A stretch of DNA of 62,819 bases from Desulfocapsaceae bacterium (GTDB taxonomy: Bacteria > Desulfobacterota > Desulfobulbia > Desulfobulbales > Desulfocapsaceae): positions 1 to 62,819 of the forward strand of contig JAQVER010000006.1 in NCBI GenBank assembly GCA_028697885.1. The letters run 5' to 3'. The notes beneath the pieces are model-generated. The model saw nothing but the letters and a program-made list of their open reading frames with translations. It was not told the DNA's origin and searched no databases. The translations under genes were made by a program, and so were the position numbers. The number at the start of each line of letters is the position of its first letter. Within the stretch, counting starts at the first letter, position 1. Below are positions 1,601 to 14,147 of the stretch, in pieces.

Positions 1601-2500
1601 ATGAGAGGAGTCTTGTTGCTCAACATGGGCGGAGCGCGGTCGGAACAGGAGCTCAGGTCTTTTCTGTTCAATATGTTCAGTGATAAGTATATTATTCGCT
1701 CGCCGGTACGTTATCTTCTCGCCCCGCTCATTTCATCTCTGCGTTATAAAAAAATATGGCGGAAGTATGAGATGATAGGCGGTAGCAGGATCTATGACCA
1801 TACCGAACGTCTGGTGAAAAAACTGCAGCAAAGAACCGGTGAGGCGGTTTTCCCGGTCATGCGCTACACTCATCCGTTGGCCGCGGATCTCTTGGCGCAA
1901 AGAGAATTTGACGAGCTGATTCTCATTCCGCTCTATCCCCATTATTCTTCGACCACCACTCAGTCGAGCCTTGAAGATGTCTATTTCGGGCTTAAGAGTC
2001 ATGGACAGACGCCGCAGGTCAGGGAGATCGGTCCCTATTATGATGATCCCCTGTTTAATGCCTCAATTATTGAACAGATTCGGGAGCAGTATCAGGACAG
2101 CGGCTTCCATCTGATCTTTTCCGCCCATGGCCTGCCGCAGAAGATTGCCGTACGGGATCCCTATGAAGGGCAGATTGAGGCGCATGTCGCCTTGTTAAAA
2201 TCGCTGTTGCCAGAGGCCGGGATGGACTTCAAAGGAGTTCATCTGGCCTATCAATCCAAGGTCGGGCCCATGCGCTGGCTGGAGCCATCTCTGGAGACAA
2301 CGCTGCAAGGACTGTCGGGAGAGAAGGTTATTGTCTATCCCCTCTCGTTTACCATTGATAATTCCGAGACCGATCTGGAGCTGGCTATTGAATATAAAGA
2401 GCTGGCTCAGACCATCGGCTTGCAGGATTACCGGGTCTGTCAGGTGCAGAATGACAGTGATCTTTTTGTGGAGTTTCTGGCGACAAGGATTGCTGGATGA
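1601..2500 (+). CDS. hemH: Ferrochelatase
   Basis: Inserts a metal ion (normally Fe2+) into a porphyrin at the end of haem synthesis. The N-terminus has the family opening (VLLLNMGG), the SAHGLP motif carries the catalytic His (about residue 176), and the acidic NSETDLE segment near residues 252-260 is the usual metal-side cluster. At 299 residues it is near the short end of the bacterial family. A purine-rich AGGAA precedes the ATG. Whether it uses protoporphyrin IX or coproporphyrin III cannot be decided from the sequence alone. The 159 bases between its stop and the proposed hgcA start show no convincing terminator. Confidence 0.93.
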   Translation: MRGVLLLNMGGARSEQELRSFLFNMFSDKYIIRSPVRYLLAPLISSLRYKKIWRKYEMIGGSRIYDHTERLVKKLQQRTGEAVFPVMRYTHPLAADLLAQREFDELILIPLYPHYSSTTTQSSLEDVYFGLKSHGQTPQVREIGPYYDDPLFNASIIEQIREQYQDSGFHLIFSAHGLPQKIAVRDPYEGQIEAHVALLKSLLPEAGMDFKGVHLAYQSKVGPMRWLEPSLETTLQGLSGEKVIVYPLSFTIDNSETDLELAIEYKELAQTIGLQDYRVCQVQNDSDLFVEFLATRIAG

Positions 2501-2659: not shown

Positions 2660-3850
2660 ATGACTCAATCATTGCAACCTCTTTCCAGTTTCCCAAAATC
2701 GGCAAATTCGGCATCCTCTTCGCTTCATTTAGCCCCGCCGCCGGAAGTCGATGCCGGAGTCTGCTGAGGTCCAAAAACGGAACCCCGGTCCGGGGTGCAT
2801 GAACTGGCAGGATACACCATCTATCCTTTTGTCACTGGTTTTGTCGACTCACAGGCAGGCCCGGTGCCCCAGGTTGATACTGTTCTGAGCCGGGCTGATC
2901 ATATCGGGACGATCGGAGCGCGAACCGGTATTCAGCGTGACAAGTACACCATAACGCCCGGACTGTATTGTGTCGGCAGGCCAACCGCCGATTCACCGGT
3001 CCTTGTTACCGCCAATTACAAATTGACTTTTGATGCCCTGCGTAATGAACTGGGGGGGCTGAATGTCTGGATACTGGTGGTTGATACCAGAGGTATCAAC
3101 GTCTGGTGCGCGGCAGGTAAAGGAACATTTTCCACTGAAGAAATAGCCTATCAGGTCCAGCGGGCAAAACTCATGGAAGTGGTCAAGCACCGCGAACTCA
3201 TTCTTCCGCAATGTGGAGCTCCTGGAGTCTCTGCCCTGAAATTGAAAACTGCCTGCGGTTTCAAGGGTACATTCGGTCCGATCAGGGCAATTGATATCAG
3301 GAAATTTCTGGCCAGCGGCCAAACAGCAGACGAGGCCATGCGCAGTGTTACCTTCAGTCTGAAGGAACGAGCTGTTTTGATCCCTTTGGAATTATTTTTA
3401 CTCCTGAAACCGCTTGTTCTCACCCTTGTCTGCCTGGTCCTGGTTTCCGGTTTCGGCCCGGATATTTATTCGCTGGACCGGGCCTTGCAGAGAGGTGGAG
3501 GCATTACCCTGGTGACGATTATAAGCGTCCTTGCCGGGGCAGTTCTGGTTCCACTCTTGCTGCCCTGGATACCCGGTAGGCAGTTTTGGTTCAAAGGCCT
3601 GCTTTTTGGGATTCCGGTCGCAATCTTTACCGTTCTGCGCTTTTGGCCCTTTGTCGGCTGGATTGCCGTGATCGGCATGGCCTTATGGGCTATGAGCGTC
3701 AGTTCCTTTCTGGCTATGAACTTCACCGGTTCCACTCCCTATACCTCGCTTTCCGGGGTTGAAATGGAAATACGCAAAGGACTGGCAATGCAGCTCGTTT
3801 CTGCCCTTCTTGGCCTGCTCGGCTGGCTTGCCGGTCCATTTTTTCTTTAA
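2660..3850 (+). CDS. hgcA: HgcA corrinoid protein of mercury methylation, candidate selenoprotein (Sec at in-frame TGA 2765-2767)
   Basis: HgcA is the membrane corrinoid protein that transfers a methyl group to Hg(II). The diagnostic cap-helix motif NVWCAAGK is present; its Cys (codon 3107-3109) is the expected cobalt ligand. A cobalamin-binding domain precedes about five C-terminal membrane helices. The frame opens conventionally only at a GTG (2795), which has no Shine-Dalgarno and would start the protein abruptly. The same frame continues upstream to an ATG at 2660 and is broken only by a TGA directly after a Cys codon (...GVC-TGA-GPKTEP...). As I remember the family, HgcA proteins often carry a Cys-Cys-Gly segment shortly before the conserved GY-x-x-x-PFV stretch, so Cys-Sec-Gly fits. 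A SECIS-like hairpin follows the TGA. Full length would be 396 residues with Sec36. The alternatives are a TGC-to-TGA error or mutation, or a genuine GTG start. HgcA identity is nearly certain; the Sec reading is a strong inference. Confidence 0.9.
2765..2800 (+). promoter_or_regulatory. SECIS-like element: UGA plus downstream hairpin in hgcA
   Basis: After the in-frame TGA (2765-2767) there is a hairpin with stem 2782-2786 (ACCCC) pairing with 2792-2796 (GGGGT) and loop GGTCC. Bacterial SECIS elements sit inside the coding region just after the UGA and present a GGU-type loop to SelB. In E. coli fdhF the loop is GGUC, about 20 bases after the UGA; here the loop G's fall at positions 23-24 counted from the U, within about one base of that arrangement. 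No clear bulged U is seen. The hairpin also overlaps the alternative GTG start, which argues against that start being used. Confidence 0.7.
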
Positions 3851-3860
3851 GAAATACATC

Positions 3861-4154
3861 ATGGAAAAGTTCAGATATATAGATGGTGCCGCAATTCTCA
3901 AACTCGACCCGGCGGTCTGTATCGGTTGCGGAATGTGTGAGACAGTCTGTCCGCATCGGGTTTTCAAATGTATTGAAAAAAAGGCGACCATCGTCGACTA
4001 TGATGCCTGTATGGAATGCAGGGCCTGTGCCACGAACTGTCCTGTCGGAGCCATTTTTGTCAATCCCGATGATGGTTGTGGCTGTGCGCGTTATATCCTC
4101 AACAGTTGGCTTGCCAAGGTTACCGGGAAAAACCCATCAGCGTGCGGTTGCTGA
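3861..4154 (+). CDS. hgcB: HgcB dicluster ferredoxin of mercury methylation
   Basis: A 97-residue ferredoxin that reduces the HgcA corrinoid and is required for mercury methylation. Two CX2CX2CX3C motifs are visible (CIGCGMCETVC and CMECRACATNC), each binding a 4Fe-4S cluster. Further family cysteines follow: a Cys pair in DGCGCARY, and a C-terminal CGC, which takes the place of the terminal Cys pair thought to handle Hg(II). The ATG lies 10 bases after the hgcA stop, so the two are co-transcribed. A longer in-frame opening upstream overlaps hgcA and is not needed. The stop is a TGA after a Cys codon, but no SECIS-like hairpin follows and the family normally ends here. Confidence 0.96.
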   Translation: MEKFRYIDGAAILKLDPAVCIGCGMCETVCPHRVFKCIEKKATIVDYDACMECRACATNCPVGAIFVNPDDGCGCARYILNSWLAKVTGKNPSACGC

Positions 4155-4596: not shown

Positions 4597-5715
4597 ATGA
4601 GGGTAGGTATGTTCAATAAATCATTAATCAGCGGTATCTTTTTTTTCTTGTTTTTGCTTCTGGCCGGTAACGCCAGAAGCGAGGCTGAACCAATTTATGC
4701 GGGGTGGACGGTGGGCCGCCCCTGGGCGGGATACGGCACGATCCTGCGTTCAACCGACAGTGGGAAGACGTGGACCCGCCAAGGGGCAGGTCAGATCGCG
4801 AATGTGCTTCTCTCCGGTGTATTCACCGTGGATCCCTACACTGCCTGGGTGGTCGGTGCTCAGGAGAATGGGTACGGGACTATCTATCATACAACCAACG
4901 GCGGTGGCACGTGGCAGAGAAAGGGCTCCTCGGATACAGCATCATCGGACTATGTTCCGAATGTCGAGTTTCTCAAGGTCCATGCCAGGGGTGACGATGT
5001 CTGGATCGTTGGCACGGGTACGATCCTCCATACGGGTGATGGTGGCGCTACCTGGACGAACCACATCCCAGATGCGTACAAGGATGTCGCCCTGCAAGGC
5101 GTGTTCGTGCTGGATCATGACACTGTGTGGGTGACTGGAGGTCCCGACAGTGCAGACCATGCCGTGATCCTCAAGACCACTGATGCCGGCCAGACCTGGA
5201 CCCGCCAGGAAGGGGGCGATGTTGACAATACACACCACCTCTTGGGCATTTCTGCGGCTGATGCGGATGTCGCTTGGGCTGTAGGCGGTACCTACAGCGT
5301 GTTGAAGACAACCGATGGCGGCACCACCTGGAGGAGGGATCCAATTTTTGAGGGGCTTGGTGATATCAACGAGGTGTACGCTGTGAGCACTTCGATGGTC
5401 TGGGTGGCCACAGATAATACCATCTGTTGGACCACCGACGGGGGGGCGACGTGGGATGACGGGACTCATCATGGCTTGGCGGGCGACGTCGCTTTCATGG
5501 GCATTAGCGCCGTTAGTGCCCAGAAAGCTTGGACTTCGTACGACCATCCTACTGGATACATTGCCTACACGGCCGATGGCGGCACTAGCTGGACGAAAAT
5601 AGATCAGCTCGGTGGCGAAGTGCTGCCGGGTTTGATAAACATTTCCTTTGCGACCCAGCCGATCCCTAAATTCAGATGGAGTCTTTTTGTTCCGGCTCTT
5701 ACAGGCAAGAAATAG
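4597..5715 (+). CDS. Secreted Asp-box (YCF48/BNR-like) beta-propeller protein
   Basis: A 372-residue exported protein. After a signal peptide (about residues 1-29) it has seven Asp-box motifs of the form (D/N)-x-G-x-(T/S)-W (for example DSGKTW, DGGATW, DAGQTW, DGGTTW), as expected for a seven-bladed YCF48/sialidase-like propeller. The ATG at 4597 is preferred because GGAGGT lies four bases ahead; in-frame starts exist at 4585 and 4522. The last 15 residues carry the tail F-x-W-x-L-F-x-P-A, shared with the RCC1-repeat protein at 6376 and possibly a sorting signal. No sialidase catalytic residues are evident, so a binding or structural role is more likely. Exact function unknown. Confidence 0.8.
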   Translation: MRVGMFNKSLISGIFFFLFLLLAGNARSEAEPIYAGWTVGRPWAGYGTILRSTDSGKTWTRQGAGQIANVLLSGVFTVDPYTAWVVGAQENGYGTIYHTTNGGGTWQRKGSSDTASSDYVPNVEFLKVHARGDDVWIVGTGTILHTGDGGATWTNHIPDAYKDVALQGVFVLDHDTVWVTGGPDSADHAVILKTTDAGQTWTRQEGGDVDNTHHLLGISAADADVAWAVGGTYSVLKTTDGGTTWRRDPIFEGLGDINEVYAVSTSMVWVATDNTICWTTDGGATWDDGTHHGLAGDVAFMGISAVSAQKAWTSYDHPTGYIAYTADGGTSWTKIDQLGGEVLPGLINISFATQPIPKFRWSLFVPALTGKK

Positions 5716-6375: not shown

Positions 6376-8670
6376 ATGACCAGACAAAAGAAAATCAGTG
6401 TTTCTTTATTGTTTACAATACTATTCATGATGTTCTATTGGATCAACAGTTCACTGGTTAGAGCTGCATATGTTAAGACTGTGACTGGAGGAGGTTATCA
6501 CAATCTGATCATCAAAACAGATGGTAGCTTATGGTCATGGGGAAGTAATGAAGACTCCGAGCTTGGAATTGGTTTTACAGCTGACAAATACAAAACTCTT
6601 CCAGTTCAGGTGGGTACTGCAGTAGACTGGCGAGGAGTTGCTGCAGGTAACGACCATTCCTTAGCCATCAAAACAGATGGCAGCTTATGGGCATGGGGCA
6701 AGAATTACGATGGCCAGCTTGGTTTCGGTTCCGCATCATCTACTGATGTATACACTCCTACCCAAGTCGGTACTAGCACTGACTGGCAGGGAGTTGATGG
6801 GGGGTATTATCATACAGTAGCCATCAAAACCGATGGTAGTTTATGGGCATGGGGGGATAATTCCCTTGGTCAGCTTGGAGATGGAACAAATGTTGACAAA
6901 TATACTCCAGTCCAGATAGGCAGTGAAAATAATTGGCAAACCGTTGCGGCAGGTAATATGCATACAGTAGCCATCAAAACCGATGGTAGTTTATGGGCAT
7001 GGGGGTTTAATTACTATGGCCAGCTTGGAGACGGAACAACTGATAATAAAAATGCTCCAGTCAAGATTGGTACTGATACTGACTGGCAGACACTCGCTGT
7101 GGGGTATGATCATACAGTAGCCATCAAAACCGATGGCAGTTTATGGGCATGGGGGAATAATTCCGATGGCCAGCTTGGAGACGGAACAACTGATAATAAA
7201 AATACCCCAACCCAGATTGGTACTGATACAAATTGGCAAGCTATTGCTGCGGGGTATTATCATACAGTAGCCATCAAAACCGATGGTAGTTTATGGGCAT
7301 GGGGAAATAATTCCGTTGGTCAGCTTGGAGACGGAACAACTGATAATAAAAATACCCCAACCCAGATAGGTACTGCTGTAAACTGGCAGAGCGTTGCAGC
7401 AGGTTATCGTCATACAGGAGCTTTAACAAAAGAAGGTGCTTTGTGGATCTGGGGAGATAATAGCTCTGGGCAGCTTGGTAATGGCACCTTTCCACAGAAA
7501 ACTATTCCGGTTCAGATTGGTTCAGGGACAGATTGGGCAGCAGTTACCTCCGGAAAGGGAGATACTACTTGGGGTCACAGCCTCGGGGTTAAAACCGATG
7601 GCAGTTTATGGGCATGGGGGTATAATTCCGATGGCCAGCTTGGAGATGGAACGACGACTAATAAAAATACCCCAATCCAGATTGGTACTGATACAAATTG
7701 GCAAGCAGTTGCTGCAGGGTATCGTCATACAGTAGCCATCAAAACCGATGGTAGTTTATGGGCATGGGGTTTTAATTACTATGGCCAGCTTGGAGACGGA
7801 ACGACTGATAATAAAAATGCTCCTATCCAGATTGGTACTGATACAGGCTGGCAGGCACTCGCTGTGGGTGACCATCACACCTTAGCTGTCAAAACCGATG
7901 GTAGCTTATGGGCATGGGGGTATAATTCCGATGGCCAGCTTGGAGACGGAACGACTGATAATAAAAATACTCCAACCCAAATAGGTACTGATACAAATTG
8001 GCAAACTATTGCTGCGGGATATTATCATACAATAGCCATTAAAACCGATGGCAGTTTATGGGCATGGGGAGACAATGCCTATGGCCAGCTTGGAGACGGA
8101 ACAACTACCGATCAGCATGAACCGATTCAAATAGGGAGTGCAACAGATTGGCAAACAGTGACTGGAGGAGATTCTTATTCAGTAGCCATCAAAACTGATA
8201 ATAGCTTATGGACTTGGGGAAGGAATGGCTATGGCCAGCTTGGAGACGGAACGACTACCGATAAACATGAACCGATCCAAATAGGGAGTGCAACAGATTG
8301 GCAGATAAGCCCTGTAGGTCGTTTTCACACCTTGTCGGTTAAAAGCGATGGTAGCTTATGGGCATGGGGGAATTCTTCCTATGGTCAGCTTGGTATTGGA
8401 ACAATATATCCTTGGAATACTACTCCGAGTCAGGTTGGTACTGCTAACAACTGGAAAGCAGCTGCCGGGGGAAGTAGTCATACAATAGCTCTAAAGACAG
8501 ATAACTCTTTGTGGGCATGGGGAGCGAATGGTAGTGGTCAGCTTGGTGATGGAACAAGCTGGAGCACTTTTCCTCTCCAAATTATAGAAGGCCGTCCTTC
8601 TGGCTCTTCTGATTTTCAATGGATTCTTTTCTTGCCTGCAATTCTTTCTAGTGCACGAGCTGGGAAATAA
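6376..8670 (+). CDS. Secreted RCC1-repeat protein (14 repeats)
   Basis: A 764-residue exported protein with a signal peptide (about residues 1-31) and 14 tandem RCC1-type units of 47-52 residues, each centred on TDGSLWAWG-x-N-x-x-GQLGDG. RCC1 folds as a seven-bladed propeller, so 14 units suggest two propellers in one chain. Many units are nearly identical, implying recent expansion or gene conversion. GGAGGA sits seven bases before the ATG. The C-terminus (F-x-W-x-L-F-x-P-A-I, then a basic end) matches the tail of the Asp-box protein upstream. In bacteria such repeats generally bind protein or polysaccharide. No enzymatic domain is visible. Confidence 0.85.
6500..8560 (+). repeat. Tandem DNA repeats encoding RCC1 units
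   Basis: About 14 direct repeats of 140-160 bases within the RCC1 gene. Long stretches recur almost unchanged, for example the segment around ACAGTAGCCATCAAAACCGA and the block encoding [12 protein letters not shown] (near 7021, 7171, 7321, 7795 and 7940). Repeats this similar are prone to recombination and to misassembly, so copy number may vary between strains or assemblies. Confidence 0.8.
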
Positions 8671-12614: not shown

Positions 12615-14087
12615 ATGATGAAAAAGATCCTGGTCGGCGCGGGAGTGATGGTAGCCATGGCAGGCCCTGCCCTTGCCAACAGTGAAACGGTCACAATTCC
12701 TGTGGAAGATTATCAGGCGATTCTCAAGCGCTTGGATGCCCTGCAGCAACGGGTAGAGTTCCTGGAGGCAAGACCGGTGGCCGCTCAGGCGGATGAAAAA
12801 CGAGTCGTGAAGGTCGAGCAGGATGTCAAAACTATTTATGATGGATTGGACGAGATTGAAACCCGGCAATTACAGAATAAAATCAATCTTGGGACCGAGC
12901 TGAGAGCCAGGGTCGATTCCTATGTTGTCAAAGATTATCCCCTCGACGGTGATAGGAAGACCGATTCCAATAACTGGACCAGTCGTTTTCGTATTAACAT
13001 GGATGCGACATTTACCGAGACTCTTTCTTTTCATGGTCGATTGGCCATGTATAAGAATTGGGGGGACAGCGATGACGCAACAGCCAGTGGTATGTTGATT
13101 GATGCCAATCGGGCTCATCAGCCGAGTTCCAGCAACCTCTGGGTTGATCGGGCCTACGTGGACTGGATCCCTGAGGGGTTGCCTGTGCCCGTGGCTATCA
13201 CCATAGGCAGGCAACCCTCAACGGAAGGCCCTCCTTTTGAGTTCAAGGAAAACAGGCTTCGCCAATCCACGTATCCTGCCCATCTGTTTAACGGGGAATC
13301 TGATGGTATTGTTGCCACTCTGGGGCTGGAACGGTATACAGGTATTGCCGAAATGGGTCTGCGTTTTGGATACAGTAAATTCTATCACAGCGACGATGAT
13401 AATAATACCGGCAGCGCCTTTCCTTTTCTGGATGATGGAGAGGCCGGGGATTCCAACGTCTTTGGCATTTTTTTTGAATCGGAAATCCCAGGTTTACCGG
13501 ACAGTCTGGCAGTCCTCAGTTATGCCACGGTCCGGGGGCTGCCTTCCAGTATGATCGGCCCTGTTCTGGATGAGGCTGCAGGGAACCCGGCAAATATGGA
13601 TCTTGGGGGTATGAATATCTGGGGGGCACAGATTCAGGCCCGGAATATTCTGGATAGTGGCATGGATCTTTTCTTCTCCTATGGGGGAAATGAGAGCAGC
13701 CCTAACGGTACTGGGCTATTCCACTATGGCCTGCTCTCTTCTGATGGCCTGGAAGCCAGGACAGGTTCTTCTATTTATCTTGGCGCACGTTATACTATTC
13801 CTTTTGAACCGCTGAATCGTCCTAAAATTGGATTTGAATTTAATCATGGTTCCCAATACTGGTTCAGCATGACAATGGGGGGGACAGATCTGTTCAATAA
13901 GCTGGCAACGCGTGGTAATGTTTATGACTTCTATTATATCCAGCCGGTGAATCAGTATTTGTTCTTTCGGGCAGGATTTATGCATGTCTCCTATGATTAT
14001 AGCGGAAGTGGTCTCTATGCGGGAGAACCTGCTGCGACCAATGCCATTCTTGATAATTATTATTTTTTGATGGATGTTCGTTTTTGA
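12615..14087 (+). CDS. DUF3373 family outer-membrane beta-barrel protein
   Basis: A 490-residue porin-like protein. It has a signal peptide (cleavage after PALA), then a coiled-coil stretch (about residues 30-85) of the kind that anchors porins to peptidoglycan, then a beta-rich domain ending in an aromatic C-terminus (VRF) suited to BAM-dependent insertion. This matches the DUF3373 family that I know from Geobacter and sulfate reducers. The ATG at 12615 (or 12618) is chosen because GAGGAG precedes it; an earlier in-frame ATG at 12552 lacks one and would put 21 residues before the signal peptide. Substrate unknown. Confidence 0.85.
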   Translation: MMKKILVGAGVMVAMAGPALANSETVTIPVEDYQAILKRLDALQQRVEFLEARPVAAQADEKRVVKVEQDVKTIYDGLDEIETRQLQNKINLGTELRARVDSYVVKDYPLDGDRKTDSNNWTSRFRINMDATFTETLSFHGRLAMYKNWGDSDDATASGMLIDANRAHQPSSSNLWVDRAYVDWIPEGLPVPVAITIGRQPSTEGPPFEFKENRLRQSTYPAHLFNGESDGIVATLGLERYTGIAEMGLRFGYSKFYHSDDDNNTGSAFPFLDDGEAGDSNVFGIFFESEIPGLPDSLAVLSYATVRGLPSSMIGPVLDEAAGNPANMDLGGMNIWGAQIQARNILDSGMDLFFSYGGNESSPNGTGLFHYGLLSSDGLEARTGSSIYLGARYTIPFEPLNRPKIGFEFNHGSQYWFSMTMGGTDLFNKLATRGNVYDFYYIQPVNQYLFFRAGFMHVSYDYSGSGLYAGEPAATNAILDNYYFLMDVRF

Positions 14088-14147
14088 TTTCTGGCGCTGA
14101 AGAGGTCTCTTGATTATTGCACATTCTATTCCGGAGGAACATTTTTC

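Follow-up and report, generated by a model that had tools for sequence, protein, structure and literature searches.

A probable selenocysteine form of the methylmercury protein HgcA in a Desulfocapsaceae bacterium

Methylmercury is made by HgcAB, and the genes for both proteins lie on the forward strand of the window, that is, the whole stretch of 62,819 nucleotides from a Desulfocapsaceae bacterium that was analysed here. The hgcA frame extends from an ATG at 2660 to a TAA ending at 3850 and is broken by a single in-frame TGA at 2765-2767 (codon 36). Translated with this codon as selenocysteine (Sec), it yields 396 amino acids plus the stop, with Sec36 in the context EVDAGVC-U-GPKTEPRSG directly after Cys35 (codon at 2762-2764); a Cys codon stands immediately 5' of the TGA in 105 of 105 CUG-type relatives. 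A SECIS-like hairpin with stem ACCCC/GGGGT and loop GGTCC follows at 2782-2796, and the first-pass annotation of this DNA had the frame, the TGA, the hairpin and their coordinates right. The ferrochelatase gene hemH (226 bits; window positions 1601-2500) lies directly 5' of hgcA on the same strand.

The predicted protein scores 421.5 bits against the NCBIfam profile NF040863, whose cut-off is 275, and carries NVWCAAGK in the cap helix (positions 3098-3121, residues 147-154), a motif that holds the Co-ligating Cys and agrees with the N(V/I)WCAAGK criterion for this helix. Alignment columns 147-151 are invariant, and the Cys of the motif, Cys150 here, is the equivalent of Cys93 in P. mercurii ND132. 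An AF2 model built from 88 sequences (mean pLDDT 91.6) comprises a corrinoid domain and five long helices, predicted to span the membrane at residues 241-262, 272-303, 309-332, 334-353 and 367-395; its confidence is poor for residues 1-20 and moderate for residues 31-40, which contain the Cys-Sec pair (block mean 69). The closest match of the model in the PDB is the HgcAB model 9a0b, followed by CFeSP.

The hgcB gene (3861-4154) begins 10 bases 3' of hgcA and encodes a dicluster ferredoxin with two CxxCxxCxxxCP motifs, a Cys form without Sec that scores 97.9 bits, just under the NF040864 cut-off of 99. Its TGA at 4152-4154 was considered as a further Sec codon and rejected, as relatives stop at the same Cys and share no extension; because they use TAA, TAG or TGA at the same place, this TGA is a genuine stop. 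Elsewhere in the window, two predicted repeat proteins of 397 and 764 amino acids have similar C-termini (5671-5715 and 8614-8670), each with a motif F.W.LF.PA... and after it a short basic tail, possibly a sorting signal. Another in-frame TGA, at 14085, separates open stretches of 513 and 855 codons in the context F-U-F (14082-14090); it may mark a disrupted gene or the boundary between two neighbouring genes and is no obvious Sec site.

The distribution of the hgcA TGA was examined in 93 genomes from the family of the source bacterium and in a wider set of 297 non-redundant HgcA loci from the family, class, phylum and named genomes (the best 80 matches of the named scan). By motif and stop-position rules devised in this analysis, on which all Sec and Cys counts rest, 49 HgcA genes of the family have the TGA within C-U-G-P, five have CCGG in that column and seven lack the motif. 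The peptide PCUGPKxxPRSG is kept on either side of the TGA among relatives. Throughout the wider set, the first in-frame stop falls 26-33 codons upstream of the conserved core at 136 loci, and these stops comprise 132 TGA, two TAA and two TAG, whereas TGA accounts for 54% of the stops lying farther out; the corresponding binomial P of about 1e-30 is indicative only, because the HgcA sequences are related rather than independent. In other HgcA proteins the alignment places Cys-Cys at the site, with Cys opposite the TGA, which bears out the earlier claim that many HgcA have Cys-Cys-Gly here, with Sec replacing the second Cys. Similarity among relatives also continues upstream of the GTG.

One alternative for the codon itself is that the TGA is a true stop and HgcA is translated from the GTG at 2795, in which case the upstream frame would extend the gene by chance or encode a short leader. 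A start codon is indeed available there, and, judged by residue numbering, P. mercurii HgcA as annotated works without the N-terminal extension. Neither this GTG nor the single later one before the conserved core is preceded by an SD-like motif, as the first-pass annotation had noted for GTG 2795. Among the CUG-type genes, 16 of 105 have no ATG, GTG or TTG at all between the TGA and residue 82, and a start with an SD-like motif after the TGA occurs in only seven of 105. The Shine-Dalgarno sequence of the ATG at 2660 is weak as well; the N-terminus MTQS.QPL.. is nonetheless retained throughout the genus, where pN/pS is 0.61 for the segment before the TGA and 0.29 after it. Such a lack of usable starts in numerous relatives, the confinement of TGA to one position, the peptide conserved on both of its sides, the aligned Cys-Cys of homologues and a hairpin constrained past coding needs make termination at this codon very improbable.

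The hairpin argues in the same direction. Its GGTC begins at nucleotide 20 past the UGA, and that of E. coli fdhF begins at nucleotide 19. In the family, GG is present at nucleotides 20-21, in the apical loop, in 49 of 49 Sec forms, as against 37% expected from synonymous recoding, and the mean folding energy of these forms is -8.8 kcal/mol versus -4.2 kcal/mol for recodings of the same peptide; no hairpin was found in the five Cys forms of the family, with energies of about 0 kcal/mol. The wider set gives a similar picture: a hairpin of -3 kcal/mol or lower occurs in 124 of 131 Sec forms, with a mean of -8.3 kcal/mol (-2.4 kcal/mol when recoded) and an apical loop starting mainly at nucleotides 19-21, but in only 13 of 93 Cys controls, with a mean of -1.0 kcal/mol. 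Stems vary in both arms among lineages, for example CCCC/GGGG and CCAC/GTGG. Judged from these comparisons of sequences, the constraint on the hairpin exceeds the demands of coding.

Sec machinery is also encoded in the genome, a draft assembly of 174 contigs. A tRNA-Sec with anticodon UCA (70.6 bits, contig C103) and selA (630 bits) are present, as is selD (376 bits), whose own frame also contains a TGA; of selB, the C-terminal 421 codons lie on contig C142 and read off its end, and the GTPase part is absent from the assembly because the contig ends there. The search for machinery proposed in the first-pass annotation thus returned tRNA-Sec, selA, selD and a part of selB. A second, divergent tRNA-Sec-like gene of 99 nt with a UCA anticodon (G000:C82:16686-16784, minus strand, locus L002) scores 58.7 bits against a gathering score of 47 and was not called by ARAGORN; matches of this length occur in four further genomes of the same genus (G075, G079, G085 and G086).

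Apart from that second gene, no support was found for a suppressor tRNA that reads the UGA as another amino acid such as Trp or Cys. TGA terminates other genes of this organism, including hgcB, where relatives have TAA or TAG; given a SECIS element and Sec machinery as well, suppression in place of Sec insertion would be extremely improbable. A misread TGC or TGT, conceivable in a draft assembly, has a negligible probability, because independent genomes carry the same TGA: nine congeners and more than 100 others, among them isolates and closed genomes of other genera.

The case for Sec at this codon is therefore strong. Three outcomes had been named in advance as speaking against it, namely a genome without selABCD or tRNA-Sec, a TGC or TGT in place of the TGA and relatives dissimilar upstream of the GTG, and none of them holds. 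We assign a probability of roughly 0.88 to the reading that hgcA encodes a Sec-containing HgcA whose UGA at 2765-2767 would be decoded by SelB and tRNA-Sec under the guidance of the in-frame hairpin at 2782-2796, with a probable role of the pair in Hg handling. The product would be a 396-residue corrinoid membrane protein bearing Cys35-Sec36 on an N-terminal extension ahead of the corrinoid domain, with HgcB as its ferredoxin partner.

Equivalence of Cys and Sec at the site is supported by their distribution. In a quick FastTree tree of 289 HgcA sequences, whose sampling is biased toward relatives of the source bacterium, 126 are Sec forms, 104 have Cys-Cys and 59 have neither (46, 7 and 5, respectively, among members of the family), and the state switches between Sec and non-Sec at least 18 times, which is what functional interchangeability of Cys and Sec would predict. 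Several contexts other than CUG were also encountered: CUP in 16 HgcA, the reversed order Sec-Cys with a SECIS-like hairpin in four (L276, L281, L288 and L319), and a lone Sec without adjacent Cys (for example L260, L274, L301, L321 and L334). Most of these contexts are accompanied by a SECIS hairpin, and the reversed and lone forms retain the Sec column and not the first Cys.

Sec also occurs in the partner protein at 12 loci, mostly of Desulfobacteria (L070, L145, L150, L171, L174, L176, L178, L179, L181, L183, L185 and L187), where an in-frame TGA occupies the Cys73 position of HgcB (GVGU) and HgcA lacks Sec. None of the 112 Sec-HgcA loci with a readable HgcB and none of these 12 has Sec in both proteins. 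Such mutual exclusion is a pattern rather than something that can be tested statistically, because HgcB changes its Sec state only twice on the tree; as a statistical result it was dropped, every test being without power.

With regard to function, mercury is bound more tightly by selenium than by sulfur, and therefore a selected Sec would mark a part of HgcA that meets Hg or controls its redox state. It is likely that the selenol/thiol pair on the flexible N-terminal tail handles Hg(II) or methylmercury: the vicinal groups may bind Hg(II) or accept CH3Hg+ and may pass Hg among the cytosol, Cys73 and the C-terminal cysteines of HgcB, and the methyl-cobamide, with Sec offering tighter Hg binding than Cys, or faster exchange or redox. 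In P. mercurii ND132, full methylation requires HgcB Cys73 together with at least one C-terminal Cys, and the HgcB tail has been proposed as the Hg carrier to the corrinoid (PMC7305189). A second pair of soft ligands on the HgcA tail would be compatible with such a relay. The annotated HgcA of the same organism, by its numbering (Cys93 versus Cys150), appears to begin past the site, which places the Cys-Sec segment outside the annotated protein of the model organism. Because ND132 HgcAB methylates Hg and is annotated without the site, the pair would not be essential to the chemistry in general; nor is it universal, as the HgcA sequences with neither Cys-Cys nor Sec attest.

The main rival to Hg handling is that the pair serves mainly in redox control, as a selenosulfide gating the corrinoid or a cluster, rather than in binding Hg or methylmercury. 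Adjacent Cys and Sec residues make up a redox-active selenosulfide in enzymes including mammalian thioredoxin reductase. The lone-Sec variants do not fit a selenosulfide within the pair, although pairing with another Cys is conceivable; redox control is a tentative alternative, on balance less likely. A rather doubtful variant of Hg handling is that one selenol, on the HgcA tail or at HgcB Cys73 but never on both, suffices for the relay, the position of the Sec being selected and not the pair, in line with the occurrence of reversed and lone-Sec HgcA. If this were true, Sec-HgcA would be the common form across large parts of Thermodesulfobacteriota, and numerous annotated hgcA genes would be truncated N-terminally. 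Where automatic annotation halts at the TGA, a sizeable fraction of HgcA proteins lose their first 36 or more residues, and any primer, model or expression construct designed from the shortened HgcA will miss the N-terminal segment.

The protein described here is a well-supported further example of Sec-HgcA and not the first. Selenium-containing HgcA was reportedly presented by Haft and Gwadz in the Journal of Bacteriology in 2023 (205:e00259-22). Citing that work, a 2026 review (PMC13188914) places HgcA (NF040863, motif CU) and likewise HgcB (NF040864, motif GVGU) among selenoproteins, and a 2024 PNAS article (PMC11588087) describes some homologues of hgcA and hgcB as possible selenoproteins; the remark in the first-pass annotation that it was aware of no described Sec-containing HgcA is thereby overtaken. 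The review additionally cites a 2008 GOS paper for HgcA, and no matching HgcA entry was found in the main text of that paper. Possibly new are the breadth of Sec use (126 of the 289 sampled HgcA), the CUP, reversed and lone-Sec contexts, and the lack of any HgcA-HgcB pair in which each protein carries Sec, the last as a pattern only.

Compared with the Sec-HgcA listed in the review under NF040863, the present protein belongs to the same family and has the same CU motif, and nothing essential differs as far as that entry describes it. Sec-HgcB is a partner in the same pathway in which Sec replaces the essential Cys73, whereas here HgcB is the Cys form and Sec sits in HgcA. Cys-Cys HgcA proteins from other Thermodesulfobacteriota and a Phycisphaerae MAG share the position of the pair and the fold, but carry a Cys at the Sec site, and most of them lack the SECIS hairpin. 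The large subunit of CFeSP (PDB 2ycl and 4djd) has a corrinoid domain homologous to that of HgcA, without the N-terminal Cys-Sec tail, the five-helix membrane domain or the cap-helix Cys of NVWCAAGK.
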